Source: a virus
IMG/VR virus record: IMGVR_UViG_3300020364_000316
Coordinates: 1 to 29,152 of that record
Direction: 5' to 3' (one strand)
DNA: 29,152 nucleotides
Notes under the pieces: generated by a model
Told to the model about the DNA's origin: nothing
Seen by the model: only the letters and a program-made list of their open reading frames with translations
Databases searched by the model: none
Shown: piece by piece, positions 2,828-29,152 of the stretch
Position numbering within the stretch: the stretch's first letter is position 1
Layout: every line of letters starts with the position of its first letter
Position numbers and translations under genes: made by a program

Positions 2828-3736
2828 TTATTTCCTTATAGTATTATAATTTTTATAAAACCATTCAACTGTTTCCCTCAATCCATCTTCAACAGAAGTA
2901 AATTGAAAATCTGGTAAATAAGATTTTAATTTTGCAATACTTGAAGGTTTTCTATATTGACCATCTGGTTTATCTTTATCCCATATAACATTACCTTTAA
3001 AATTCATATACTCAACTATTAAATCTACCATATCCTTAATAGATACCGGATTAGAAGTTGACAAAATAATAGGTTCATTATCTGAATAATTATTTATAGC
3101 CCACTCTACAAGTCTAGCAATATCCTTAGAATAAATGAACTCTCTAAGTGGTTTACCAGTTCCCCATATAACAAAATCAGTATTATTTTGTTGTGCCAAA
3201 TAACACTTATGAATTAAAGATGGTAAAACATGACCATTCTTAATATCAAAGTTATCATTAGGTCCATAAATATTTGTTGGTATTACAGTAACATATTCAA
3301 TACCATATTGTTCCCTGTATGCTCTAATTTGAATGTCTGCCATTCTCTTAGCATATGCATAAGGATAGTTTGAAAAATGTGGTTCACCTAAATGAACCTT
3401 TTCTTCTGATAATGGATATTCTACATCATCAGGAAAAACGCAAGTAGACAGAAAACACACTAATTTTTTTACTCCTACTACTCTAGCTGCTTCAATAACA
3501 TTTGTATTTATCATAATATTATCATAAAAGAACACACCTTTATGATTCATATTACCACCTAATCCACCAACTTTTCCTGCACAGTGAATTACTTTATCTG
3601 GCTTATGTTCTTTAAATATTCCTAAAGTTTCATTCCACCTTCGTAAATCACCATCTTTACTTGAAAGTTTAATTCCACCACTTATAGCAGAACCAACTAA
3701 TCCTGTTCCACCTGTTATTAATGTATTATCATTCAT
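2828..3736 (-). CDS. fcl: GDP-L-fucose synthase
   Basis: This is the bifunctional 3,5-epimerase/4-reductase that turns GDP-4-keto-6-deoxymannose into GDP-L-fucose using NADPH. The NADP-binding motif GGTGLVG is at residues 9-15. The family-typical VIHCAGKVGGLGGN segment is present, as is the serine of FLSTCVFP (S97) and the YxxxK pair Y126/K130 in YAYAK. IPTNIYGPNDNF is another conserved fucose-synthase stretch. It has 302 residues, close to the usual 310-320. GGAGATATTTAA precedes the ATG. Together with the dehydratase at 574-1548 it completes the two-step route to GDP-L-fucose. The genes between them encode transferase- and methyltransferase-like proteins that could use the product. Confidence 0.95.
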   Translation of the reverse strand: MNDNTLITGGTGLVGSAISGGIKLSSKDGDLRRWNETLGIFKEHKPDKVIHCAGKVGGLGGNMNHKGVFFYDNIMINTNVIEAARVVGVKKLVCFLSTCVFPDDVEYPLSEEKVHLGEPHFSNYPYAYAKRMADIQIRAYREQYGIEYVTVIPTNIYGPNDNFDIKNGHVLPSLIHKCYLAQQNNTDFVIWGTGKPLREFIYSKDIARLVEWAINNYSDNEPIILSTSNPVSIKDMVDLIVEYMNFKGNVIWDKDKPDGQYRKPSSIAKLKSYLPDFQFTSVEDGLRETVEWFYKNYNTIRK

Positions 3737-4323
3737 TTAAATATCTCCATATTTCTCAAATCTGGCCATTCAGATACGTCCCATTTCTTTGGTTCAGTTT
3801 CAATTGCTTTAGGTAACTTCCGCAATCCTTCAGTAGCAGTTTCGGGTGTCATATAATAATGATATCCAATTGTACTTATATTTTGATCTCTCCAAGGAAC
3901 ATCTGGATCTCTACCATCATAAGACATTTTTTTTAGTTCATCTTTTGTCTCTTTATCATCTAATAATACCATACCACCCCTTCCAAGATTCAAATGTTTT
4001 TGAAATTGAAAACTCAAACACATTAAAGTTCCAGGTATATAACTGTGCCTTTTCCATAAAACTGCAGCATCAATTATATTCGTTCCACCCAAATAATAAT
4101 AATCTTTCCAATCCTCTTCCTTCCATTCAAATTCAATCCCTATCTTCTTTGCCAAATTTGGAATTGATGGATAAGTATTTGGTGGAACTGTAAACTTATC
4201 TACCTCTTTATATCTTAAACATAATTCTATTGCATGTGTACAACAATCTATTGCAACTGCATAAGGAGAACCAAACCAGTGTGCTATTTTATTTTCGAAA
4301 TCCTTTATTTCTTTAAAACTCAT
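3733..4323 (-). CDS. Half-length DegT/DnrJ/EryC1-like aminotransferase
   Basis: This 196-aa protein aligns with the large PLP-binding domain of sugar aminotransferases of the DegT/DnrJ/EryC1/StrS family. YAVAIDCCTHAIEL (residues 21-34) matches the usual SGTxAL segment, and FTVPPNTYPSIPNLAKKIG matches the following helix region. Asp85 in IIDAA is in the place that contacts the pyridine nitrogen. Lys109 in SFQFQKHLNLGRGG is the Schiff-base lysine. YHYYMTPETATEGL resembles the NYRMT motif that follows. Family members are about 370-400 residues with a C-terminal small domain; that domain is absent here. The core motifs are intact and the frame is tightly coupled at both ends, so this looks like a compact phage form rather than a recent frameshift. 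Whether it still transaminates is uncertain. Confidence 0.78.
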   Translation of the reverse strand: MSFKEIKDFENKIAHWFGSPYAVAIDCCTHAIELCLRYKEVDKFTVPPNTYPSIPNLAKKIGIEFEWKEEDWKDYYYLGGTNIIDAAVLWKRHSYIPGTLMCLSFQFQKHLNLGRGGMVLLDDKETKDELKKMSYDGRDPDVPWRDQNISTIGYHYYMTPETATEGLRKLPKAIETEPKKWDVSEWPDLRNMEIFK

Positions 4324-5330
4324 AACATTTCTCTTTCATAATCTTCTCTTTTTTCTAAATCATCAAAAACTGTTTTCATATATTCCTTACTTATACCAAC
4401 ATTTGTATACTTATTTATCAATTCTAAAAATTCATTTTCATTTTTATATAAATCTCTAACCGCTGTTATATGTCTCATCTTATGTGGTTGCCATGCCCAT
4501 TCTAAAAACCTTATTACTAAATCATCTGTTTCATTAAGAAACGATAACTTACCCTCACCAATATAAGCCTCTGGTTTCATGACATCTTTACTTTCTTTTC
4601 TATCTAACATAACTTTTAAATATTCTTTGTTAACATCAATTGATATTTGCTGATGTGGTATATGATATGGAAATTCATCCATTATATCAAACCTAAAATT
4701 TAATCTCTTCGCTAATGGTTTAGTTACATCAATATGATTTCTACCTGTTTTTTTATTTACTTTAATATCATATTTATATTCCTTTAAAAACTCTAACCTA
4801 CCTAATATTATATCTGTTAGAGAATCTCTGTCTCTACAAATAATATCTAAATCATCATAGTCATAATAATTTGGAAAGAATTCTTCACTTTTAATTATAG
4901 CACAATCTTCTAAACCATCCATTATACCAACAATATCTATTAAATTAGAAAATCCAATATGTTTAAATTCTCCATAAACTTCATCAACTTTCACTTTACC
5001 AACTTTTTGTTTCAATAAACAAGCTAATCTATGATCTCCATCCCAAGACTCATATCTATGTCCTATACTTTTACACATAATTAACTCTGTATTATACATT
5101 GGACCTAAATAATCAAATGTTAAATAAAATTCTAAGTAATCCGATGTACTCATATAACCACTCTTAGCTCTACCTAACTCACCCATAAGTTTAACATATT
5201 CATCATAAGGTTCTCTTTCACCACACAAAAGTTTATAATGTGGAGAGTTTTCTATATGACATGGATATACTACACCATTCTCATTAAATAATCGCAATAC
5301 AATATCATCTATATTAATTGTTTTTATCAT
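4320..5330 (-). CDS. Two-domain protein: GxHR (ParB-like) plus nucleotidyltransferase-like
   Basis: This is a 336-aa protein with two visible modules. The N-terminal half carries SPHYKLLCG (about residues 29-37) and WDGDHRLACLL (96-106). The GxHRxA motif is typical of ParB/sulfiredoxin-like domains that bind or hydrolyse nucleotides. The second half has DYDDLDIICRD (157-167), then NHIDV (198-202), an arrangement like the DxD plus distal Asp of the polymerase-beta nucleotidyltransferase fold. The same pairing recurs in the C-terminal half of the gene at 10659-12305. Set in a glycan cluster, a role in transferring a nucleotidyl, phospho- or sugar-phosphate group is plausible but unproven. The start overlaps the upstream methyltransferase stop (ATGA-type coupling). 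Confidence 0.6.
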   Translation of the reverse strand: MIKTINIDDIVLRLFNENGVVYPCHIENSPHYKLLCGEREPYDEYVKLMGELGRAKSGYMSTSDYLEFYLTFDYLGPMYNTELIMCKSIGHRYESWDGDHRLACLLKQKVGKVKVDEVYGEFKHIGFSNLIDIVGIMDGLEDCAIIKSEEFFPNYYDYDDLDIICRDRDSLTDIILGRLEFLKEYKYDIKVNKKTGRNHIDVTKPLAKRLNFRFDIMDEFPYHIPHQQISIDVNKEYLKVMLDRKESKDVMKPEAYIGEGKLSFLNETDDLVIRFLEWAWQPHKMRHITAVRDLYKNENEFLELINKYTNVGISKEYMKTVFDDLEKREDYEREML

Positions 5331-5884
5331 TTAAGACATTCCACGTTTAAACTAATTAACGTTCCATTTTCTTTATCCATATGTGGAATGTATGCTTGTG
5401 AATGATCATCTAATTCTGAATGTTCAGTTTCTCTCCAATCATATTTCTTTACGTTCCTAAAACCAACGTCTTCTAATAAATCTTTTAAACTACTAAAATC
5501 ATAAACAGTTCTGTGATATATATATTTCGTATGATATGTTGGATCTTTTAACATCACCATTTTTCCATAAAGTGGACCTAAAAACTTTTCTAAATCATAA
5601 CTGTCAACTAAATACAATTTAGCCATTTGATAAAAATCAGGCACTGCAATTCTTAACATACCATCTATTCTTAAAACTCTTTTCCATTCTTTTAAAATTT
5701 GAACAATTTCTGCTCTATCAAAGTATTCTATTAGATGAGATGCATAAATTAAATCAACTGATTTATCACGATAATCTAAACTTATTACATTATGTGAATC
5801 CACATGTGGATATTCTGCACCATCAATGTGAGTCCAATCAGAACCAAAGTTTCTATTACCACATCCTAAATTTAATTTAACCAT
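5327..5884 (-). CDS. SAM-dependent methyltransferase (type 11-like)
   Basis: This is a 185-aa Rossmann methyltransferase. KLNLGCGNRNFGSDWTHID (residues 3-21) is AdoMet motif I followed by the acidic residue of strand 2. VDLIYASHLIEYF is the motif around strand 4, and RVLRIDGMLRIAVPDF is the conserved post-core segment of Methyltransf_11/predicted SAM-dependent methyltransferases common in polysaccharide loci. It overlaps the cupin gene upstream by 13 bases. Likely substrates are a sugar hydroxyl or a carboxyl or phosphate on a glycan intermediate, but the sequence does not say which. It is slightly shorter than many relatives (about 200-240). Confidence 0.82.
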   Translation of the reverse strand: MVKLNLGCGNRNFGSDWTHIDGAEYPHVDSHNVISLDYRDKSVDLIYASHLIEYFDRAEIVQILKEWKRVLRIDGMLRIAVPDFYQMAKLYLVDSYDLEKFLGPLYGKMVMLKDPTYHTKYIYHRTVYDFSSLKDLLEDVGFRNVKKYDWRETEHSELDDHSQAYIPHMDKENGTLISLNVECLK

Positions 5885-6375
5885 TTTTTAATTTTCCCCA
5901 TAACAGTACTATCTTCCTTTGGTTTATTCCAAGGGTATTTACTTCCATCTGGTGCATCCTTCCGTTCTTCTATAAAAACTTTATCTTTCTTTTGTCCAAG
6001 ATATGGACCTGTTTTATATTCGTATACAATCGTACCCTCTTCAAGACTTTCATATGTGTGTCCACCTCTTAAAGTAATTGAACAATCACCAGGTTCAAGT
6101 ATTGGTGTTTCCATAACACTATCGTTGATATCAAAAAGATAAACCTTAACTCTTCCTTTAATAACTACCCAAGACTCCTGAGTCATATTAGTAACTTTTT
6201 TATTTGGTATATGTCTATGTGGTTTAAACGTCTTACCCTTATCCATTTCAAAACAAGATACCTGAATATACTGCTTTTCATCTACTAAGTCTACTCTATC
6301 TGTTGTTATATCATCTACTCTATTAATTACATGCAATAACATTGATGGTTTTACTTTTGAGTATATCTCCCTCAT
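5872..6375 (-). CDS. Cupin-domain protein
   Basis: This is a 167-aa single-domain cupin. FKPHRHIPNKK holds the HxH of cupin motif 1. ESWVVIKGRVKVYLFD is the strand and glycine region. LEPGDCSITLRGGHTYE is motif 2 with its conserved PGD and histidine. The C-terminal part (KYPWNKP) is proline- and lysine-rich and may pack on the barrel. In sugar-biosynthesis clusters small cupins act as epimerases or ketoisomerases (WxcM/FdtA-like) or as metal-dependent sugar-binding proteins, and the setting here favours such a role, but no diagnostic catalytic pair could be pinned down. A strong AAAAGGAG lies 11 bases before the ATG. Confidence 0.78.
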   Translation of the reverse strand: MREIYSKVKPSMLLHVINRVDDITTDRVDLVDEKQYIQVSCFEMDKGKTFKPHRHIPNKKVTNMTQESWVVIKGRVKVYLFDINDSVMETPILEPGDCSITLRGGHTYESLEEGTIVYEYKTGPYLGQKKDKVFIEERKDAPDGSKYPWNKPKEDSTVMGKIKKWLN

Positions 6376-8138
6376 AACTTTATTAGCTCCTTTTCATAAG
6401 TTTCTAATTTTTCTATATACAATGTAAAAATCTCATAGTCCATAGTTCCAACCTCACCACTATCTTTTAATATTTGTGTTAAATTATTTATAAACCCTGA
6501 ATGTTTATCTTTCCACTGAGAACCATCAAATTCAATCACAACATCATTATCTTTATCCTCTGTTATATACCTAACTCTTTCAGTTAAATCATATAAGGTA
6601 TTTGGTTGTTCAGCCTTAATATAAGATTCAATATCATTAGGATCAACATCACTGTAAATAACGGAACACCAAGGTTCTAATGCAGCCATAAGTTCTGGAG
6701 TACAATTATATATTGAAAATGCTACATCATATTTCGGTGGAATTATTGGATACATTAACTCATCGTGCATCACAAAATGTCCCCATTTTCTAACAAAGTT
6801 TCTTGTACTCCTACGATTTTGTTTTAACCATTCATCACTCTCTCTACCTTTCATAAAAACCTGTCCATCTGGATTTCTTATAGCCCCATCTTTGAATCTA
6901 CTACCACGACTTGTCATATGATATACCAAACCTTTCCAAGTCTGTTTTAAATCATAACCTGCTAATACAAACCGATTGAATATATCTGAATCTTCTTTTG
7001 ATTGTGGGGCAAATAATGGGTCATGTCCACCTATTGCTAAGAAGTCATCTTTGTACATAGCCCATGGTGCGAATATTCCACGAGTTGTTTCATCTTCTCT
7101 CGTTGATACGTGCTCTTCCCAAAAATTCCATAATTCATGTTCTTTAAATTCTTCAGGTTCTATCCCAAAATCCATTATTATCTTTTCTGGTCCATCAGGA
7201 TGTAGTGGTGGTTCTACTCTCGTTGCACTTACAACAACTCCTCTTTTAATATGTTTAAATACTTCTGTATCCAAACCTGGTAAAGTGTACATATCTGCAT
7301 GATATATCATAATGATATCATTTGTAGCCATATCTACCAACTTATCATATAATATAGTATGACCTAATCTATTGGGACCTTCGTTTCTATGAATTTTTAC
7401 ATTGTAATCTTTGTCTGCAATCTCTTTCATCCATTCCCAAGTACCATCATTTGAGAAATCATCTGCCCAACATATCTCATGTCTATATCCTAAATTCTTA
7501 CGAATGCTATGATATGACCATTTAAGATATTTTAAGTTATTTCTACTCGGTTGTATAAAACTTATCACTCTATTCGAATCTACCTCATTCTTTAACTTCA
7601 CTAAAAAATCTTTTAATTCTGGTGGTTTAATTTTAGCTTGATGTTTATCTAAATCATATAAATCATCCATTTGATACACCGATTCGAGGTCAATTAGACT
7701 TAATTTTTCATCTACCTTTATAATATTAAGTGGAACGAGGTCGTAATAAAATAGGTTAGTATCTTTAATAGTCTCTTTTAAAAGTGTCAGGAAACCCTCA
7801 GGAACCACCTTAAAATCGAATTCTGAGTCTGATAATAGTTTACCCTCTTTAGTTACATATCCAACTACATCTTCATCATCGTAAATTAAACCAATAAGAG
7901 CTGGAGCTAATTTATCAAAAAATCCAGCCTCATATGCAGTTATAAAATTCTGTCTTCTAATATAACCCTTATTAAAAACCTTATAATAAAGTTTATTTTT
8001 CTTATCCCAATAAACTGCTCTACCGTGATTTATACTCTCATTATTTGAAGTACTTAAATCTCTAACAACTCTATCTAATTTATTTATTATTAATGCACAC
8101 TTCTTTAAGTCTAATTCTGATAATTGATATTTATTCAT
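6372..8138 (-). CDS. Kinase-like/GT2 fusion protein
   Basis: This is a 588-aa multidomain protein. Residues about 38-155 resemble a small protein-kinase-like phosphotransferase (as in lipopolysaccharide kinases): K53 in LYYKVF, E70 in AYEAGFF, D133 and N138 in YYDLVPLNII, and D150 in SLIDLES sit in the order ATP-Lys, Glu, catalytic Asp/Asn, metal Asp. Residues about 190-450 form a GT2 domain: FIQPSRNNLKYL start strand, DDFSNDGT (226-233), the DxD-type HADMY (280-284), IGGHDPLFAPQSKEDSD, and a terminal basic segment. About 110 further residues from KYDVAFSIYNC onward form a third, unrecognised domain. The enzyme could phosphorylate and extend the same glycan. The stop overlaps the cupin start (ATGA) and the start overlaps the dehydrogenase stop. 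Confidence 0.78.
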   Translation of the reverse strand: MNKYQLSELDLKKCALIINKLDRVVRDLSTSNNESINHGRAVYWDKKNKLYYKVFNKGYIRRQNFITAYEAGFFDKLAPALIGLIYDDEDVVGYVTKEGKLLSDSEFDFKVVPEGFLTLLKETIKDTNLFYYDLVPLNIIKVDEKLSLIDLESVYQMDDLYDLDKHQAKIKPPELKDFLVKLKNEVDSNRVISFIQPSRNNLKYLKWSYHSIRKNLGYRHEICWADDFSNDGTWEWMKEIADKDYNVKIHRNEGPNRLGHTILYDKLVDMATNDIIMIYHADMYTLPGLDTEVFKHIKRGVVVSATRVEPPLHPDGPEKIIMDFGIEPEEFKEHELWNFWEEHVSTREDETTRGIFAPWAMYKDDFLAIGGHDPLFAPQSKEDSDIFNRFVLAGYDLKQTWKGLVYHMTSRGSRFKDGAIRNPDGQVFMKGRESDEWLKQNRRSTRNFVRKWGHFVMHDELMYPIIPPKYDVAFSIYNCTPELMAALEPWCSVIYSDVDPNDIESYIKAEQPNTLYDLTERVRYITEDKDNDVVIEFDGSQWKDKHSGFINNLTQILKDSGEVGTMDYEIFTLYIEKLETYEKELIKL

Positions 8139-9006
8139 CTACTACTGCTCTCCCTTTCATTTCTTCCCAATCTCTATTTTTTCTAACCTTATCATTAGTT
8201 TCTAATACTCCCGATAAAACATTAATATAAAGACCTAACGAATTTTCTACAGCTACACTTATTAGTGCATTTAAATCTTTGGGTAAACAATGTCCACCAA
8301 ATCCAAACTCATCATCTGGACCTGGAACTGTTAAATGTGATTTGCCTATCCTATCATCATATAAAACATACTCTACAACCTTATCATAATCTATATCTAA
8401 CTTCTCACAAATCTTATAAATTTCATTAGCAAATGATACTTTTGTTGCCAAAAATGCATTAATAAAATACTTAACCATTTCTGCCGTATTTGAACCTGTT
8501 TTAATAATAGGTGTTGTAGGATATATTCTTGAATATAATTGTTTAAGAGTTGTAGTTTGTGGTCTCGGACCTCCCAGTATAATACGTTTAGGATTTTTTA
8601 TATCTTCTAAAAAGTGTCTTTCAGTAAGAAATTCAGGATTAAAAACTACAGTAACTACTCCTCGTTTCTTTTTATATTCTTTATTCAACCTTTCAGTAGT
8701 TCCTGGTGGAACAGTTGATTTTATTACTACTGTTTTTAATTCTGAATCTGGATTATACCATCTACCTTTAGCAGTTTTATTAATATCTTTAATTACTTTC
8801 TCTACTATAGATGTATCACAACTACCATCTTTTTTCATTGGCGTTGGAACACATACAAATATAACTTCTGACTTTTTAATTACATCATCAACTTTAGTAC
8901 TCGACCCATTACCATTTGTATCATATGTTCTAACTTTATAATGTGGTGAAAGAACCGAATGCATAGCCTTTCCTACATAACCAAATCCTATTATACCTAT
9001 CTCCAT
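8131..9006 (-). CDS. Short UDP-glucose/GDP-mannose dehydrogenase-family protein
   Basis: This is a member of the nucleotide-sugar 6-dehydrogenase family, which oxidises C6 of a UDP- or GDP-sugar to a uronic acid using two NAD. GIIGFGYVGKAM is the NAD-binding GxGxxG. VCVPTP, STVPPGTT, NPEFL and the FGFGGHCLPKD segment with the catalytic cysteine (C240) are all present. An open frame extends to 9030, but GGAG lies six or seven bases before the ATG at 9006 and the protein then begins at the NAD-binding strand, so I take 9006 (291 aa). Classical enzymes have about 390-450 residues; the C-terminal Rossmann domain that helps bind the nucleotide sugar is missing. Whether another protein supplies it is unknown. 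The 5' end overlaps the GT at 8997-9905. Confidence 0.88.
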   Translation of the reverse strand: MEIGIIGFGYVGKAMHSVLSPHYKVRTYDTNGNGSSTKVDDVIKKSEVIFVCVPTPMKKDGSCDTSIVEKVIKDINKTAKGRWYNPDSELKTVVIKSTVPPGTTERLNKEYKKKRGVVTVVFNPEFLTERHFLEDIKNPKRIILGGPRPQTTTLKQLYSRIYPTTPIIKTGSNTAEMVKYFINAFLATKVSFANEIYKICEKLDIDYDKVVEYVLYDDRIGKSHLTVPGPDDEFGFGGHCLPKDLNALISVAVENSLGLYINVLSGVLETNDKVRKNRDWEEMKGRAVVDE

Positions 9007-9905
9007 TGTAACTCCCAATTTTCTAACCATTCTTCTTCAGTATAAAATCTTTCAAACCTTTCTCGAGAAGTTTGACTACACATATTATAAAATTTATTCT
9101 GTTTTAACTTATTAGCAATTTCTACTGCATGATCCAAATCACCAACTTTTACTGTAGTAAGTGGATGGCAATTCTCCTGCGTATCCAATCCTTTATAACC
9201 AATACAAGGAATACCATGCCAAGCACAATTCATAGCAAATGTTCCAGCAGCATGTGTTCTCATTAAATGAACACCTATATTAAACTGACTAAGTGCTACA
9301 ATCCATTCTCTCCAATTCATATAAGGCATATACTTAATATCTTCAATTGCATCCTCTTGAGGTTGTTTTCTTCCCATAGACGGGGCCCAAATTGGATCAC
9401 CTATTTCTCTCGCCACAATATAAGAATCAAATCCACCATACCAACTAACAAAGTTTCCACCAATGATAACTGCATCACCCCACTCACTTCTTGGAACTAA
9501 GTTATATGGTATCATCAAACTTCTCATCACTCTTACATCCTTACAACCTAATCCTAAATAATAATTTACATCAGATTCATTATGACAATAAACCCAATCT
9601 GCATCCATCAAGGTATTATAATAATGAAACTGCTTATCTATCTCATAATCTTGAAAGTACCAATGTGGACCTTCTTGCATTACTGCCACCTTATCACAAC
9701 AACCTCGTATATAATTTAAACTTACTTTTGGTTGTTCCTTTGGAATAATAACAATACCTAAATCAAAATGTTCCTGTGGTCTGGCATGTAAACTACACAT
9801 TGGTGCATCGAGTGCCAAACACCATGCCACTTCTGTACGAGAGTTTGGAAAGTTTTTTGGATACTTTTTATTATCCCCTGTTTCTGAAAAGAATGCTACT
9901 TTCAT
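8997..9905 (-). CDS. Putative GT-B-type glycosyltransferase
   Basis: This is a 302-aa protein with a GT-B-like pattern. The N-terminal half ends in VYCHNESDVNYYLGLG, a typical inter-domain stretch where a predicted acceptor domain checks for a sensed position. The C-terminal half has VIIGGNFVSWYGG, FNIGVHLMRTHAAGTFAMNCAWHG and IPCIGYKGLDTQENC, like the donor-binding domain of GT4-like enzymes, though a clean E-x7-E is not visible. It is shorter than usual GT4 proteins (about 350-400). AGGAGTTATACGG precedes the ATG. Neighbours are a nucleotide-sugar dehydrogenase and GT-A enzymes. The donor is unknown; a uronic-acid donor is a guess from context. Confidence 0.68.
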   Translation of the reverse strand: MKVAFFSETGDNKKYPKNFPNSRTEVAWCLALDAPMCSLHARPQEHFDLGIVIIPKEQPKVSLNYIRGCCDKVAVMQEGPHWYFQDYEIDKQFHYYNTLMDADWVYCHNESDVNYYLGLGCKDVRVMRSLMIPYNLVPRSEWGDAVIIGGNFVSWYGGFDSYIVAREIGDPIWAPSMGRKQPQEDAIEDIKYMPYMNWREWIVALSQFNIGVHLMRTHAAGTFAMNCAWHGIPCIGYKGLDTQENCHPLTTVKVGDLDHAVEIANKLKQNKFYNMCSQTSRERFERFYTEEEWLENWELQWR

Positions 9906-10666
9906 CCGTATAACTCCTTATAAGTTCTTCTTATCCAATAATTTGCATCTCTACCCATATCATTTTGTGGTATAGCATTAAAATGATATACCCAACCTGC
10001 ATCTAAAAAATGTAATTCATCAGTCCACCAACATTGTTTATCTATATATAATAAATTTTTTCTAAATAAATCCTGTAAATTATAGCAATTTGGTAATATT
10101 TTTACATCAACCTTATTTTTATTTAACATAAAATTCAATATAGTTTGGTCTGTAGCCGTTTTTAACTTACTAATAGTTTTATTAATCCAATCACTATTAT
10201 CAGAATAATATTCTCTCATAGTATTAAAAAACCCTTTATGTGAATCATTGACAATCTGAAACCCTCCGTTAATATATGTCCAAGGTTTAACCTTCCTTTT
10301 ATCAAATAACTCTTCACCAAATCCTTTTATACTTCTTAATACCCATTCATAATCTCCATCATTCATCACTCCACAATATTTACCTTCAGATTCTTCAAAG
10401 AAATTAGAACAATCTGGATGAACTATTGTATCAGCATCAACCATAAGAATTTGGTCATATTCAATATTATTAGATTCTAATATATCAAACAAATAATATC
10501 TTTGCCAAGTTATTTTCATATAATCTATTGGATATAATAACTCATCTAATACTAACAATTCACTATTATTTTTATTACACCATTGTTTCCAACTATCAAT
10601 AGAATAGTCATAAGAAGAACCTCTTTCACTTATTTTTATAGCTGGAATGAATACTACATTATTCAT
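9902..10666 (-). CDS. GT-A glycosyltransferase
   Basis: The open frame extends to 10828, but the first 54 codons lie inside the preceding gene. The ATG at 10666 overlaps that gene's TAA (10659-10661), and the protein then begins MNNVVFIPAIKIS, a normal first strand, so I take 10666 (254 aa). YDQILMVDADTIVHPDC holds a clear DxD (DAD) metal-binding site. TYINGGFQIVNDSHKGFF and TATDQTILNFML match the acceptor/donor motifs seen in GT8-like and related GT-A transferases. HFNAIPQNDMGR near the end includes a histidine in the place often used for metal binding. Donor and acceptor are unknown. Confidence 0.78.
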   Translation of the reverse strand: MNNVVFIPAIKISERGSSYDYSIDSWKQWCNKNNSELLVLDELLYPIDYMKITWQRYYLFDILESNNIEYDQILMVDADTIVHPDCSNFFEESEGKYCGVMNDGDYEWVLRSIKGFGEELFDKRKVKPWTYINGGFQIVNDSHKGFFNTMREYYSDNSDWINKTISKLKTATDQTILNFMLNKNKVDVKILPNCYNLQDLFRKNLLYIDKQCWWTDELHFLDAGWVYHFNAIPQNDMGRDANYWIRRTYKELYG

Positions 10667-12305
10667 TAAAACCCCATTCTTCTTTTGTAAATACATTAAA
10701 TGGATAACCCTTATATAATTCCTTAACTTTGAAATTATAAATTCCTTCCCAATCTGTTTTATCTCTTTCACTGGATTTATTTTTTCTAGCGAAATAAAAC
10801 CGTGGTTGTAAAAAGTTATAACCATCAATTATTTTACTATAATTTTTTATTAAATCATCATCACTCTGTGCATCAAAGTATGCAAATTTTAATCTATTGA
10901 GTGAAAATATTTCTACATTTCCTTTCTTAATATGTTCAACCTCTCCACCTAATAACTGATTTCTCAGTGCTGTAGAAACTATTACATCTACATCATCATT
11001 TTGTCTAATTCCCATTAATGTAAGAATAGCACTTTGTGTTAAAGTATATTCTTCCCTCGGAAATCCCATAGAATCCAATTCTAAAATATTTCTAAGTTTA
11101 GAAACTGGAGAATAAACTCTATGTATACCATCCTTCTTACGTGGTTTATTATAAATATTATCCTTTAACATATAAAAAGGAAAATATTTTTCACCCCTTA
11201 TTAACCTGCCTATCATAGCACAGGCTCTATGATAACCGTGTCTAATAAATCCATTATCAAACTCTACAGGACTATTTCTAAGAAACTTTTCTATATCTAA
11301 ATCAGACATATCTTTCCTTTTCTTAAAATAATCTTCAGTTAAATTATGCCATCCAATCTCATGATGGTCATCAATATCATACTTAAATCCAGCCATCATT
11401 GTATTATAATATTGCCAATTAGTTGAATCTAATTTAACCTTCTGTCTATTTTTTTCATTCTTCCAATAATTTACAACATCACCAACTGTTTTTAACTTGT
11501 AGTCATTTAAAATAACTTCCTTTCCACCGCCACCTGATTGTAATTCCATTTGTAAAAAATAATCTAAATTAATAGGTTCGTATTCAATTTTAGTTTTCTT
11601 TCCTTTTCCTGTATGTTTTCCTAAACTTAAAAACCATTTATTGTTTCTTGAATCACCTTCCAAATAACTAAATTTTAAATCAGTTTTCCACGCCGCATAA
11701 TTAAAACTTAATTGATCTCTTTTACTGTTATACTTTATTTCATTCCACCACTCTTCCATAGTCTCAATACAATCTTTTTCATTATGTTTCCGTAATATAA
11801 TCATTCCTGTAATTAAACCATTATTCTTAGGATATCCTTCTTTTTTATATCTATCAATTTGATTTTTTATTAATACAGGATTATCCTTATAATTACCATT
11901 ATTTTTCTTACCTAATTGAAAAATAGCATCAGCTTCCTTATAAATACAATTTCTAGGGTCAAGTTTATTCTGTGCATGATCAAAGAAAGATACATTACAA
12001 CTATTAATTAACTGATCTATATTACCCCTAACTGTTAAGTTACCATCTATAAAAATACTATACTCATATTCATTTAAAAACCTATGTGGTAAAATTTTAT
12101 ATCTTTTAGCACTTCTCGTTAAATCTGTATAATAAGGTGTACACTTCCTAATTTCCCATACATCTGAACTTAAATTTTCACTATCAGTAAAACAAATGTA
12201 GTCCCACCCTTTATCAATAAAATGTGGATCTACTAAAGTGTCATAATCACCAAATATAGTTGTATATATAACTTTACTGTTCATATATTTGACCAAATAG
12301 CTCAT
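10659..12305 (-). CDS. DUF616-like glycosyltransferase fused to GxHR/nucleotidyltransferase-like module
   Basis: This is a 548-aa fusion. Residues about 8-235 look like a DUF616/TOD1-type transferase: VIYTTIFGDYDTL (12-24), WDYICFTDS (34-42), YEYSIFIDGNLTV (80-92) and RDQLSFNYAAW (196-206). The C-terminal part carries RHGYHRACAMIGRL (355-368) and, some 70 residues later, MGIRQNDDVDVIVS (431-444). These are a GxHRxA motif and an acidic DDxD motif like those of the separate protein at 4320-5330. Methionine 8 (12284) is an alternative start; neither candidate has a clear Shine-Dalgarno, but ATG at 12305 makes a 4-base overlap with the upstream stop. The order suggests one enzyme transferring a sugar and the other handling a phosphate or nucleotidyl group. 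Confidence 0.72.
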   Translation of the reverse strand: MSYLVKYMNSKVIYTTIFGDYDTLVDPHFIDKGWDYICFTDSENLSSDVWEIRKCTPYYTDLTRSAKRYKILPHRFLNEYEYSIFIDGNLTVRGNIDQLINSCNVSFFDHAQNKLDPRNCIYKEADAIFQLGKKNNGNYKDNPVLIKNQIDRYKKEGYPKNNGLITGMIILRKHNEKDCIETMEEWWNEIKYNSKRDQLSFNYAAWKTDLKFSYLEGDSRNNKWFLSLGKHTGKGKKTKIEYEPINLDYFLQMELQSGGGGKEVILNDYKLKTVGDVVNYWKNEKNRQKVKLDSTNWQYYNTMMAGFKYDIDDHHEIGWHNLTEDYFKKRKDMSDLDIEKFLRNSPVEFDNGFIRHGYHRACAMIGRLIRGEKYFPFYMLKDNIYNKPRKKDGIHRVYSPVSKLRNILELDSMGFPREEYTLTQSAILTLMGIRQNDDVDVIVSTALRNQLLGGEVEHIKKGNVEIFSLNRLKFAYFDAQSDDDLIKNYSKIIDGYNFLQPRFYFARKNKSSERDKTDWEGIYNFKVKELYKGYPFNVFTKEEWGFNE

Positions 12306-20603: not shown

Positions 20604-21161
20604 TTACACTCCTTCTATTTTATCTATTATTTCATACTCTAAACACTGTTTTGCCGTTAAATACAAATCTGTTTTTGTTTTTTCAGCCCAATACTCTCTA
20701 GATTTAGCAGATACGTCTGATAATATTTTATTAATAGTTTCATGTAATTCTTTTAAATGATCCGAAGATTTAAGAATATCAGAAACCTTTCCTTCTTCAA
20801 AAATAGAACCTTCATGAATCATTACAGTAGCATTTTCAGACATACTTCTATCTCCAGTTCCACATGCTAAAATTACAGCTGCTGCCGACATAGCTGCTCC
20901 ATAACAACGTGTATTTACTTTAACATCAAATGATTGCATAAAATCAATAATTCCTAACATAGAATAAACATCTCCCCCATAAGATGATAATATTAAATTT
21001 ATAGGTTTATCTGAATTTACTCTTTTGCACACTTCAAATCTAGAACTTACATATCTAACATCAGTAATGTCTAATGAATCTGATAAGTAGACTACATTAT
21101 TATGTAAATCTAAACCATAATCTAATTCTTTATACATTAATTGCAACTCTTTATTATTCAT
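20604..21161 (-). CDS. ClpP-like serine protease (second of two)
   Basis: This is a 185-aa ClpP-fold peptidase (family S14). YGAAMSAAAVIL places the nucleophile at S92, MIHEGS the histidine at H116, and TDLYLTAKQCLEYEIID the aspartate at D165, the Ser-His-Asp triad in the usual order. ILSSYGGDVYSMLGIIDF matches the GGxxxxGxxI segment that shapes the oxyanion region. Host ClpP needs an AAA+ partner; none is in this window, so it may borrow the host's ClpX or act alone. A scaffold or head-maturation role has precedent among phage ClpP-like proteins, but the gene sits with replication genes here. AAGGAG precedes the ATG. Confidence 0.9.
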   Translation of the reverse strand: MNNKELQLMYKELDYGLDLHNNVVYLSDSLDITDVRYVSSRFEVCKRVNSDKPINLILSSYGGDVYSMLGIIDFMQSFDVKVNTRCYGAAMSAAAVILACGTGDRSMSENATVMIHEGSIFEEGKVSDILKSSDHLKELHETINKILSDVSAKSREYWAEKTKTDLYLTAKQCLEYEIIDKIEGV

Positions 21162-21768
21162 ACTTTCTCCTTACTCGCTTATCTAAATAATACACATAAA
21201 TGTGCTTTGATGGTAATTTTTTTACAAAGATATTAGGGTCTCCCGCATCATACCTTCTCTTAATTTCTCTACTATATGGACGTTTTCGTTGATTTAAGGA
21301 ACGTGAATGCATTTCCTTTCCATCTACCATTAAAATACTGCCCTTTCCAGTCTTTCCTTTGTATATGAAATTTGAAGCTTTATAAATCACTCCACTATGT
21401 CCATGATGAGGATCTGCAAATGATACTATAACTTGAATATCTGTATTTTTCTTTAACCATTTTAATGTCTGTCCTATAAAATAACTTTCTGTATTTGTTG
21501 GAGTATCATCAATACATACTAACCTTCTAAGTTCATATATTCTAAGTGGATCGTCAGGATTATACTTTTTAGCCGTTGCTGGCATTGAAGGCCATGCATA
21601 CATCATAGCACCTATCATAGTTGGTAAACCAAAATTCCCTTCTTTATATAACCCAAAACAATTAGTACTTTGAACTCCATTTACATTTTGAGAATAATGA
21701 TACTTTTCAATAAATGGTGCAATAGATCTACGAAGAACTTCTTCTACCGTAAAATCTCTAACTTTCAT
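21154..21768 (-). CDS. Mom-like GNAT-fold DNA-modification protein (second of two)
   Basis: This is a 204-aa protein matching the Mom-like family related to the phage Mu enzyme that modifies adenine. ELRRLVCIDD (79-88), NTESYFIGQTLKWLKK (92-107) and SFADPHHGHSGVIYKASNF (116-134) are the family's conserved string: an acidic-arginine start, a serine-asparagine helix and a DxxHxGxIYxAxN motif. An N-terminal IEKYHYSQ segment (20-27) is shared with the related gene at 23841-24611. Mom-type enzymes are acetyltransferase-like and add a group to the N6 of DNA adenine, shielding phage DNA from restriction. The start has no clear Shine-Dalgarno and overlaps the gp62-like stop. The exact chemistry is not established from sequence. 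Confidence 0.76.
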   Translation of the reverse strand: MKVRDFTVEEVLRRSIAPFIEKYHYSQNVNGVQSTNCFGLYKEGNFGLPTMIGAMMYAWPSMPATAKKYNPDDPLRIYELRRLVCIDDTPTNTESYFIGQTLKWLKKNTDIQVIVSFADPHHGHSGVIYKASNFIYKGKTGKGSILMVDGKEMHSRSLNQRKRPYSREIKRRYDAGDPNIFVKKLPSKHIYVYYLDKRVRRKYE

Positions 21769-22238: not shown

Positions 22239-22332
22239 CTACAGAGATACCTCTTCTGAGTTTATCACCTTTACCAGCCCCACTAACTCTCTTTTCCTTT
22301 TTAATTTTTGTTTCATTCTTTTTCTTTGACAT
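22141..22332 (-). CDS. Small basic protein with GKGD motif
   Basis: This is a 63-aa protein rich in lysine. SGAGKGDKLRRGISVDEWGKK (residues 17-37) followed by WEAIF is similar to a group of short phage proteins with a GKGDxxR start and a WxxxWexIF end that are known only as conserved hypotheticals. GAAGTTATCTA precedes the ATG, and the gene is coupled to the upstream ClpP-like stop. Its 3' 98 bases overlap the gp62-like frame, an unusually long overlap in this compact genome. The basic charge suggests nucleic-acid binding, but the function is not known. Confidence 0.66.
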   Translation of the reverse strand: MSKKKNETKIKKEKRVSGAGKGDKLRRGISVDEWGKKWEAIFRKKESAVVVDKGSTDESEGTT

Positions 22333-22934
22333 TAGATAACTTCATCTATTAACCTATATTTTAAACAAGTGTTAGCATCCCATAGTAAATCATGTTTCAA
22401 TATTTCATCTAACTTTCTCATTGGAACTTTTGTATACTCTTTATATACATTTTTAATAGTTTCCATCATTAAATCTAAATTCTTTTTCTCATCTTCTATT
22501 TCAGAATATTTTCCCCACAATGATGAAGATAGTTGATGAATCAACATATAAGAATTTCTACTCATAAATCGCTTCCCACCAACTACTGAAATAAATGTTG
22601 CTGCACTCGCACTAAATCCATCTACATAAGTTTCAACAGGAACTTTACATCTTAATACCGTATCCATTGATGAAATACCTGCGGTAATCGAACCACCACC
22701 TGAATTTATGAGTATTTTAATTGAAGGTGGATTTATGTCTAAATTATTTGCAAGGGTTAAACTTTTAGATTCTATCTCACCCACCTTTTTATTTAATTCT
22801 ACAACAGATTCTCGATTAACATTTGCATAAAAATAAATTTTATTTTCGTGAACTGCTATATGTTTTTCTTCTGGTTTTGGTTTTTGTACTAATTTTTGTG
22901 GGGCTTTCTTTTCACCCCAATATTTTTCGTCCAT
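22332..22934 (-). CDS. ClpP-like serine protease (first of two)
   Basis: This is a 200-aa ClpP-fold peptidase with a lysine/proline-rich N-terminal extension (about 30 residues). VDGFSASAATFI puts the nucleophile at S110, MLIHQLSS the histidine at H133, and HDLLWDANTCLKYRLID the aspartate at D182. ILINSGGGSITAGISSMD is the GG loop. It is clearly diverged from the second copy at 20604-21161. The gene separates gp44 from gp62. GGGAG lies eleven bases before the ATG. Why a peptidase should be embedded in the clamp-loader operon is not known; processing of a phage protein or of a host target is possible. Confidence 0.9.
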   Translation of the reverse strand: MDEKYWGEKKAPQKLVQKPKPEEKHIAVHENKIYFYANVNRESVVELNKKVGEIESKSLTLANNLDINPPSIKILINSGGGSITAGISSMDTVLRCKVPVETYVDGFSASAATFISVVGGKRFMSRNSYMLIHQLSSSLWGKYSEIEDEKKNLDLMMETIKNVYKEYTKVPMRKLDEILKHDLLWDANTCLKYRLIDEVI

Positions 22935-23851
22935 TATTTTATTACTCCCAATAGTTCAATTAACATAGCCATAGCATTGATCTCCTTATCAACTACCTGA
23001 CCATCACTTAACTCATACTTAGCAATTACTAAAATACATTCAGCTACATGACCCTTTCCATAACTATCTACTTCATCATATAATAATCTAAACAAATCTG
23101 CGAAATCTCTAATCTGAGAGTCTGCTACTAACTGTCTTATATTTTTAAATGCACTTTTTCTATCTTGTGTCTTTAATATTTCTAATAACTTTAACTTATA
23201 ATCATTCTCTACTATACTCTGTTTATCAACTACCAACTTACCATTAATGGACTGTCGTTGCGCAGAATTTATAACTCGTCTAATATCAGGGTATCCAGAA
23301 TTTACTAATATTTTCAAATCATCTAATTCATAAACAATATTTTCCTCTTTGAGAATCTGAACCATTCTTTGTGCAACTTCTGACCTAGAAGGTGGTATTA
23401 TTTGAAAAGACTGACAACGACTTTGTATTGGGTCTATGATCCTCTCTACATAATTACAAGTCAAGATAAATCTACAATGTTTTGAAAATGTTTCCATAAG
23501 GTTACGAAGAGCAGCTTGGGAATGAGGACTTATATAATCTACCTCATCTAAAGTAATAATTTTATTATCTTTAAAACCAATTGTAGAAGCAAAATTTCTA
23601 ACTTTAGGTATCAAATCATCAACTCTTCTTACATCTGATGCGTTAATATATAGATAATCACATTCTATCTGATTCACTAATATTTTTGCGAGAGTGGTCT
23701 TACCTGTACCAGCCTTCCCATATAGAAGAAGATGTGGTAAGTCGCCACTCTCTATATACACCGACACTTTACTTTTGAGATGATCGTTCCCAATGTATGT
23801 GTCGAGAGAGGAAGGCCGATATTTTTCTACCCATAATGTATTACTCGTCAT
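22934..23851 (-). CDS. 44: Clamp-loader ATPase, gp44-like
   Basis: The large clamp-loader subunit: an AAA+ ATPase that, as a tetramer with gp62, opens the sliding clamp and loads it at primer ends. WVEKYRPSSLDTYIG is the family opening, GKAGTGKT (45-52) is Walker A, LDEVD (101-105) is Walker B, TCNY (131-134) is sensor 1, and SRC (144-146) carries the trans-acting arginine finger that defines clamp loaders. It has 305 residues, close to T4's 319. AAAGGATTTT precedes the ATG, which overlaps the Mom-like gene by 11 bases. All key catalytic residues are present. Confidence 0.95.
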   Translation of the reverse strand: MTSNTLWVEKYRPSSLDTYIGNDHLKSKVSVYIESGDLPHLLLYGKAGTGKTTLAKILVNQIECDYLYINASDVRRVDDLIPKVRNFASTIGFKDNKIITLDEVDYISPHSQAALRNLMETFSKHCRFILTCNYVERIIDPIQSRCQSFQIIPPSRSEVAQRMVQILKEENIVYELDDLKILVNSGYPDIRRVINSAQRQSINGKLVVDKQSIVENDYKLKLLEILKTQDRKSAFKNIRQLVADSQIRDFADLFRLLYDEVDSYGKGHVAECILVIAKYELSDGQVVDKEINAMAMLIELLGVIK

Positions 23852-24611
23852 AAAATCCTTTTTCGTGTACTTCGTGTTTAATAACTTCTGCTTTATTGAT
23901 AGCTTCCTTTGGATAAGGTAACTGAGGATGTTTCAAGTTAGTAATAAATAGTTTCTTTTCTTTTCTACTACCAATAAAAAATAAATATCTATGTTTTTCT
24001 GCTTCCTTCTTTAACCAAAATGTATGTCCAATTCGATTTTTTAAATGTTCAGCATTACTACTACCATACATAGAGTAAACAGTTCTACTATGAATCCATT
24101 CTCCATCTTCTTCTATTTTCAAACTAAACGTAGGAGCCATTTGAATATCTCCACATCCTTGATACAACCAATTGGTTGCTTGATATATTTTTCCAGTATG
24201 ATTCTGCTCTGGATCGGCATATGAAATCAATACCTTTACATCTGGTGCATTTTTCTTTAACCATTTAAATGATTGTGAAATAACAAACGATTCTATATTT
24301 TTTCCATAATCATCATAAATAACTAACCGAGTTAGTTCCAATATATTCTTAGTAGTAAGTTCTAAGTCCTCTTTAAATATTGAACCTAGAACTCTTCTAC
24401 CTATTGGATATCCGTAAGCAATACATCCAATAAGTTTTTCTTCTTTTTCATTAAAAAACTTATGTTCATTATCAGATTGATAAAATATGCCTATTGGATA
24501 TCTACAAGAAGATAATCTACCACTATAGTGATTCTTCTCTATAAACTTCCTAGCTATTGGTTTTGAAACTAATCTAAGTGATACTTTTAAAGTATCAACA
24601 TACTCTTCCAT
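23841..24611 (-). CDS. Mom-like GNAT-fold DNA-modification protein (first of two)
   Basis: This is a 256-aa protein related to the shorter copy at 21154-21768. ELTRLVIYDD (92-101), NIESFVISQSFKWLKK (105-120) and SYADPEQNHTGKIYQATNW (130-148) repeat the same conserved string. An IEKNHYSG segment (24-31) is also shared. It carries about 70 further residues after the core that the other lacks. Mom-type enzymes modify adenine in phage DNA and thus protect it from restriction. It lies between gp45 and gp44 with a TAATG overlap at the start. There is no clear Shine-Dalgarno, so it may depend on translational coupling to the clamp. Which base and group it handles is unknown. Confidence 0.78.
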   Translation of the reverse strand: MEEYVDTLKVSLRLVSKPIARKFIEKNHYSGRLSSCRYPIGIFYQSDNEHKFFNEKEEKLIGCIAYGYPIGRRVLGSIFKEDLELTTKNILELTRLVIYDDYGKNIESFVISQSFKWLKKNAPDVKVLISYADPEQNHTGKIYQATNWLYQGCGDIQMAPTFSLKIEEDGEWIHSRTVYSMYGSSNAEHLKNRIGHTFWLKKEAEKHRYLFFIGSRKEKKLFITNLKHPQLPYPKEAINKAEVIKHEVHEKGFYDE

Positions 24612-28031: not shown

Positions 28032-29152
28032 CTAAAAATTCACAGACATTCCTACATTAAAGTATCTTGGTGTTCCAAGAAATACTTCAGCATTATGTGC
28101 TGCGTGAACTTTGTCCCCATAGCTATTATATTGACTATGGTCCACTGCATCTTGTACAAATATTGCGTCTGTCGCATTAAATATATGTGCAAAAGCGGTG
28201 AAGTTATACCCACCAATAGTAGGTAGGGCATATGAAGCATGTAAATCCACTTTGGAATATCCAGGTGCTTTCCATACTTGTTCTCTATCTGCATCGGCGT
28301 CTGAACCATCATACTCTCTTGCGTCAGGACTCCAATCAGAATAATTATCATCATACTGATTGTATACTGCCTGTAATTGTAATCCTTTTACAGGAGTAAG
28401 AGTTCCAACAAGTGCGTAAGATGTTTGAGGTTGATCACCTACAAACAAACCATCAAGTGCGTAAGAATACGGAGTGGTTGTTTGTCCAATGACTTGACCA
28501 TCTTCGTTAAACTCATCTTCTTGATAGTTACCATCGGCATCACCATCGAACTTCCAAGTTCCAATACTTACTATAGCATCTAATCTAAGTAAATCAAGTA
28601 CTTGTGTAGAAGCTTCAACTTCAATACCTTGGTGTTTCTGATTAATTCCACTTAGGAATATAACATCAGTATCACCACTGGAACCTTGTCCAGATGTTAC
28701 AGATTTGGTAAGATTTCTGTCTTTCCAATCTGTACTGTATGCACCAACCTTGATATTTCCAACAGCTGACGAAAAGTTTACACCAGCTTCTGAGCTGACG
28801 AATCTTTCGTTTGCAGGATCTGAAGCAACTGTACCATCAAAATAAATTACATTATCCATGATGGGTGGTTTTTCAACAATACCAAAGTTACCAAAAACAC
28901 TAACGTTATCGGAAACATCGTACATTGCTCCACCTTTGAACTGAGTAGTACTAATAGCTTCAGCTTTTATTACTTCATCAGCAACTGTGAAATGATCTTG
29001 GTAAGAGTATTTAATACTTGATACTCCAGCCATACCATAAGCAGAAAGTGGACCTGAAGAATAAGATCCTTGCAGGAATCCACCTAACCAATCAACTGTA
29101 GTTTCATTGTGATAAGCAATAATATCACCTAACTCAACATTTTTACCATCAG
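28032..29152 (-). CDS. TonB-dependent outer-membrane receptor, C-terminal part (5' end outside window)
   Basis: The minus-strand frame is open from the window edge (29152) to a TAG at 28032, at least 372 codons; an internal ATG at 29033 is not the start. The protein is a run of alternating beta-barrel strands such as GGFLQGSYSSGPLSAYGMAG, LQAVYNQYDD and VDLHASYALPTIGGYNFTAFA. It has the receptor-typical HIFNATDAIFV turn near the end and finishes YFNVGMSVNF with a C-terminal Phe, as outer-membrane barrels do. Such proteins import iron chelates, vitamins or sugars, powered by TonB. The plug domain lies outside. The DNA is visibly less AT-rich than the phage genes, consistent with recent host origin. 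It runs in the same direction as the polymerase gene and is followed by a hairpin. A contig-assembly join is the main alternative. Confidence 0.85.
   Translation of the reverse strand, partial: DGKNVELGDIIAYHNETTVDWLGGFLQGSYSSGPLSAYGMAGVSSIKYSYQDHFTVADEVIKAEAISTTQFKGGAMYDVSDNVSVFGNFGIVEKPPIMDNVIYFDGTVASDPANERFVSSEAGVNFSSAVGNIKVGAYSTDWKDRNLTKSVTSGQGSSGDTDVIFLSGINQKHQGIEVEASTQVLDLLRLDAIVSIGTWKFDGDADGNYQEDEFNEDGQVIGQTTTPYSYALDGLFVGDQPQTSYALVGTLTPVKGLQLQAVYNQYDDNYSDWSPDAREYDGSDADADREQVWKAPGYSKVDLHASYALPTIGGYNFTAFAHIFNATDAIFVQDAVDHSQYNSYGDKVHAAHNAEVFLGTPRYFNVGMSVNF

Follow-up and report, generated by a model that had tools for sequence, protein, structure and literature searches.

The question raised by this locus is whether two proteins of a viral glycan operon, one free-standing and the other fused to a glycosyltransferase, carry copies of one mobile module, and which step of glycan assembly such a module may perform. 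The window, by which we mean the whole stretch of 29,152 bases of the virus record, encodes both proteins on the minus strand, on which all of its larger ORFs and all features of the window given below by coordinates also lie. P0001 (4320-5330) is a stand-alone ORF of 336 aa, in which DGDHRLA (D97 to A103) is followed about 56 residues on by DYDDLDI (D157 to I163). P0002 (10659-12305) is an ORF of 548 aa composed of a TOD1/DUF616-like glycosyltransferase domain and a C-terminal domain, and here HGYHRACA (H356 onward) is followed about 76 residues on by NDDVDVI (N436 onward). Among the 34 ORFs of the window, G.HR followed by DD.D at 40-90 residues occurs only in these two proteins. Shuffled ORFs of the window had a mean of 0.009 motif pairs per window (P = 0.009 for at least one), and two pairs in one window appeared in 0 of 4000 shuffles; in the fetched loci, which supplied 347 distinct ORFs with a length of 150 aa or more, the pair was confined to relatives of P0001 and P0002. 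The ordered motif pair, which the initial annotation had described at the right coordinates, is confirmed in both proteins as real and beyond chance.

The N-terminal half of P0002 had been taken for a DUF616-like transferase, and the Pfam search agrees with this: it matches TOD1_MUCI70 (PF04765, formerly DUF616) with 58.2 bits against a curated cut-off of 21.4 (E=1.1e-15), and also phrog_26101 (E=1.4e-15). This glycosyltransferase-like domain lies at 11604..12275 by the Pfam/PHROG ranges, and TOD1_MUCI70 accounts for P0002 residues 11-234 only. The C-terminal portion of about 305 residues (10662..11579; residues 243-548), for which we use the working name X, has no family match in Pfam, PHROG or NCBIfam, in line with the earlier remark that no named system was known, and searches of PDB sequences with the X and P0001 profiles gave nothing significant. 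The domain search that had been proposed was run on viral contigs, and relatives of X were found at 9, 31 and then 43 viral loci in successive rounds, while one bacterial MAG contig, which may itself be viral, encodes a further relative. In all, about 45 loci encode X, nearly every one of them viral, and no cultured phage record matches it.

X is combined with many different partners. TOD1-X is found in P0002 and its relatives, TOD1-X-kinase-like in L016 and L017, GT8-like-X-kinase-like in L028, L034, L035 and L037, X-kinase-like in L015, L018, L025, L026, L029, L031, L032, L040 and others, GT2-X in L030, L033 and L036 and also in L135 and L152, and kinase-like-X in L039, L041 and the group L141 to L151. 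In L038 X stands nearly alone and a GT2-like ORF overlaps it, so this locus was scored as GT2-X on the tree. In a tree built from 29 X domains every main clade is tied to a partner of its own, and the X-kinase clade contains one fusion to TOD1, which implies either two separate gains of TOD1 or more than one loss. Because six architectures exist and at least five architecture changes are required on the tree, there is good evidence that X is a fusion-prone module, joined to TOD1/DUF616, GT2 or GT8-like domains and to a kinase-like domain that precedes or follows it.

Two of these partner families also occur elsewhere in the window. The protein at 6372-8138 has a kinase-like N-half (7569..8138) of the same family as the X-fused kinase-like domains, with 32-48% identity to them, and its columns K, Y-D and I-D-L-E are invariant in 15 rows; no Pfam family matches this domain above the cut-off, the only matches being weak ones to Pkinase and ABC1. 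It is followed in the same protein by a GT2 domain (7206..7562; Pfam Glycos_transf_2, E=1.7e-14). A GT8-like gene (9902..10672; Glyco_transf_8 with E=1.2e-4, which falls short of the curated cut-off) overlaps the end of P0002, and in a sister clade (L028, L034, L035, L037) the homologous gene is joined to X.

An AlphaFold model of X built from 29 sequences has pLDDT 92.9 and pTM 0.90. Its C-half (10662..11111; residues 157-306 of X) was compared by VIA-align and matched TM1012 (Z 7.5, the top PDB match, spanning 119 residues), MenT1 (6.8), LnuA (6.1) and FKRP (4.4), all of these Z being under 8, where the tool warns that a match may reflect only a common arrangement. Among the matches listed, 19 chains reach Z of at least 5 to this half and nearly all are NTases; families missing from the list are not counted as excluded. 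Foldseek likewise ranks NTases first, with none at E <=0.001. Since the Z values are only moderate, the claim for X is limited to the fold, and the C-half is predicted from the model to have a nucleotidyltransferase (pol beta-like) fold. The predicted metal ligands are well conserved. In the DDVD motif (10986..10997; P0002 residues 437-440), D438 and D440 are invariant in 29 of 29 sequences, and at E465 (10911..10913), the predicted third acidic ligand, 28 of the 29 have an acid (E in 23, D in 5, H in 1). At the level of the predicted fold, the suggestion of a nucleotidyl- or phospho-transfer enzyme is supported. The G[GS] that usually precedes the acids in NTases reads QS in 28 of 29 X sequences, which departs from the hG[GS] pattern; the acidic motif reads GDLD in a divergent clade, and members of the kinase-X clade apparently have His for the third acid, with Gly or Ser replacing the leading Asp of their DDxD.

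Comparison with known systems places X beside two groups of enzymes. The minimal NTases of the TM1012, MenT, JHP933 and LnuA group match the model of X best (Z 5.4 to 7.5), and in X the D-x-D and the third acid are in place; X differs from them in its QS for G[GS], in an identity of 10-14%, and in lying outside any toxin-antitoxin or resistance context. LicD/FKRP enzymes (PF04991; FKRP 6kal, 6kak), which combine the NTase fold and Asp runs with CDP-alcohol donors (PMC11982090), align with the NTase fold of X at Z 4.4 and 4.1, and X has in common with them a conserved Asp run and a glycan context. LicD proteins share the Asp run and some of them do not have the hG[GS] motif (PMC11982090), and therefore QS in X is not decisive against the NTase superfamily. 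Unlike LicD/FKRP, X has an additional N-half containing HR and is fused to phage glycosyltransferases and kinase-like domains. The LicD Pfam model matched none of 10 X members at E up to 10, and the X halves aligned significantly with neither LicD (P=0.29) nor AbiEii profiles. Because X fails the LicD model, we leave it out of that family and regard it as a new domain variant inside the known NTase superfamily; we take the LicD/FKRP enzymes as its nearest functional model.

The N-half of X (11124..11579; residues 1-152 of X) contains the [GSN]-[YWF]-H-R motif (11226..11237; G357 to R360). H359 and R360 are invariant in 29 of 29 sequences, and the first position is S in 20, G in 6 and N in 3. 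KorB, of the ParB family, is alone among the matches listed for this half (Z 2.7 over 75 residues with rmsd 3.1, and Z 2.2). The ParB-CTPase fold has GxxR as its phosphate motif, and the ParB-CTPase/sulfiredoxin fold is commonly fused to other domains (PMC12704722). The HR motif of X may correspond to GxxR of proteins with this fold, such as ParB, SerK, SbnI and Srx, although the motif of X is mostly SYHR and the Z is 2.7 at best. With ParB sequence profiles the N-half of X gave no significant alignment, and the motif was out of register. Since the KorB Z is low, the profiles do not confirm the match and the glycine of GxxR is mostly Ser, the ParB reading of X is taken as a lead, and this half is possibly ParB/sulfiredoxin-like. 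The passages covered of the survey of the fold name no fusion to an NTase or glycosyltransferase (PMC12704722), and no description of a ParB-like and NTase pairing in glycan loci was found in the part of the literature covered.

The position of X in glycan operons is supported by its neighbours. The window encodes a GDP-mannose dehydratase, an epimerase, a UDP-Glc dehydrogenase, glycosyltransferase families and methyltransferases, and PIG-L and carbamoyltransferase genes lie near X relatives. From these neighbours and from what was computed for X (its family, the fold predicted for the C-half, the conservation of the triad and the repeated change of partner), we are about evenly inclined to accept that X is a metal-dependent nucleotidyl- or phosphotransferase that acts in phage glycan assembly as an enzyme of two parts. 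In such an enzyme the C-half would supply the NTase fold with its metal-binding acidic triad, and the invariant HR of the N-half, in a possibly ParB/sulfiredoxin-like setting, may bind the phosphate of a nucleotide. X would then transfer a nucleotidyl group, or a phospho-alcohol group in the manner of LicD/FKRP, onto a sugar or a growing glycan; the fused TOD1, GT2 or GT8-like glycosyltransferase would bring X to the acceptor, and a phosphorylated substrate may come from the kinase-like domain that is often fused. Catalysis, the substrate and nucleotide binding are thus what we infer for X. Large marine phages have long operons for sugar biosynthesis, and an unnamed domain that recurs in fusions with glycosyltransferases and with a kinase-like domain points to a chemical step that is probably common. 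Phosphodiester or nucleotidyl decoration is a candidate for this step, and X gives a concrete handle on it; with X, the fusion-prone, nucleotide-binding ParB-like fold may also gain a pairing with an NTase.

The repeated fusion of X to different enzymes would suit a targeting module, and QS in place of G[GS] and the clade with an altered acidic motif are consistent with X being an NTase-fold domain of reduced catalytic ability that serves the glycosyltransferases and kinase-like domains fused to it as a scaffold or binds the acceptor for them. We consider this unlikely, as the triad is kept in 28 of 29 sequences and H359 and R360 in all, which is more conservation than a scaffold needs, and we retain a transferase as the preferred reading of X.

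P0001 is a different case. Relatives with 47% identity (L044, L045, L046 and L049) are encoded in the contigs of L023 and L024, which carry X, and further ones are L047, in another contig, and L048, a fragment. These were obtained by searching the X-carrying contigs and then with a two-row alignment; P0001 patterns searched against viral contigs gave no relative, and none was found in phages, plasmids or 245 genomes of one phylum. A gapped DNA pattern for DG-HR and DDxD retrieved the known family, one chance match and a phage ParB-like protein (L054), which was rejected as unrelated to the family. P0001 is assigned to a separate, very rare family. Its DGDHR (5028..5042; residues 97-101) lines up with GxxR, the phosphate motif of ParB: in hhalign comparisons of the N-half with phage and bacterial ParB profiles, GDHR falls on GQHR/GERR, and the alignment scores of 25.5 and 20.5 each exceed those of 100 of 100 column shuffles. 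The claim of a ParB-like half is weakly supported, in X by two low-Z KorB matches and in P0001 by this register. Because neither P0001 nor its segments match any Pfam family, including ParB_N (PF02195), we call it ParB-like and not a ParB_N member. The NTase-like acidic motif DDLD (4845..4856; residues 159-162) is kept in all three family members aligned, and later aspartates of the C-half are invariant too. P0001 is probably a ParB-like plus NTase-like protein. A match of a P0001-relative segment to SbnI, a ParB-like serine kinase, was too weak to use (E 1.1).

P0001 belongs to a conserved cassette (3733..5884) of a methyltransferase (5327-5884), P0001 and a short DegT-like aminotransferase (3733-4323), the order of which is identical in L046 and L047; about 3 kb upstream, L046 also encodes an X protein. 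The DegT-like protein has 196 aa against 360 positions of the Pfam model, and its L046 counterpart has 197 aa. In L046 the genes of the DegT-like protein and of the GDP-mannose dehydratase are separated by an ORF of 239 aa (L046:6727-7443) with a C-terminal HNH-like stretch recognised by eye, and the window has other genes there.

X and P0001 may both derive from a single ancient module, ParB-like plus NTase, of which X would be the fused copy and P0001 the free one. The motif order and the operon are common to P0001 and the X protein, the N-half of P0001 aligns to ParB and the C-half of X is assigned to the NTases, and the best register of the two C-halves places DDLDI of P0001 on NDDVDVI of X. 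However, BLASTP of P0001 against P0002 gave nothing significant, the profile-profile comparison of X with P0001 found only a match of 13-14 columns at DDLDI with a probability of 0.8%, and when only the C-halves were compared 6 of 100 shuffles scored as well. The single-sequence AlphaFold model of P0001 is also poor (pLDDT 36), and the families are otherwise unlike. Since homology is undetected and the model has this pLDDT, a single shared module is unproven and, in our estimate, improbable. Of the mobile shared module proposed in the initial annotation, it is the mobility, for X, that is supported. A broader idea is that a nucleotide-gated transferase head, ParB/Srx-like plus NTase, is a reusable glycan-biosynthesis module specific to phages and plugged into unrelated glycosyltransferases and kinases, that P0001 is its free form and that it would attach a phosphodiester-linked group to phage glycans; this we put forward as a rather doubtful speculation.

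That the sugars go onto phage DNA through a hypermodification pathway, and not onto virion or cell glycans, would fit two Mom-family genes in the same window and the ParB-like, NTase and kinase domains that phage DNA-modification loci contain, but is very improbable, since the TOD1, GT2 and GT8-like partners lie inside a 17-kb series of genes for nucleotide-sugar enzymes and glycosyltransferases, and neither a base hydroxylase nor a DNA glucosyltransferase was recognised in the window.

Beyond the glycan genes, two different Mom-family DNA modification proteins are encoded at 21154-21768 and 23841-24611 (Pfam Mom, E 4e-41 and 3e-46), and two ClpP-like proteases at 20604-21161 and 22332-22934. 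At 28032-29150, adjoining the DNA polymerase gene, a TonB-dependent receptor-like protein is encoded by its C-terminal part, with a GC content of 38% against about 29% elsewhere. An X-carrying contig, IMGVR_UViG_3300025645_000038, encodes at the same place a TonB-dependent receptor-like protein with 59% identity and a Plug domain, and a phage-borne SusC-like receptor has been reported from a marine megaphage (PMC9723777).
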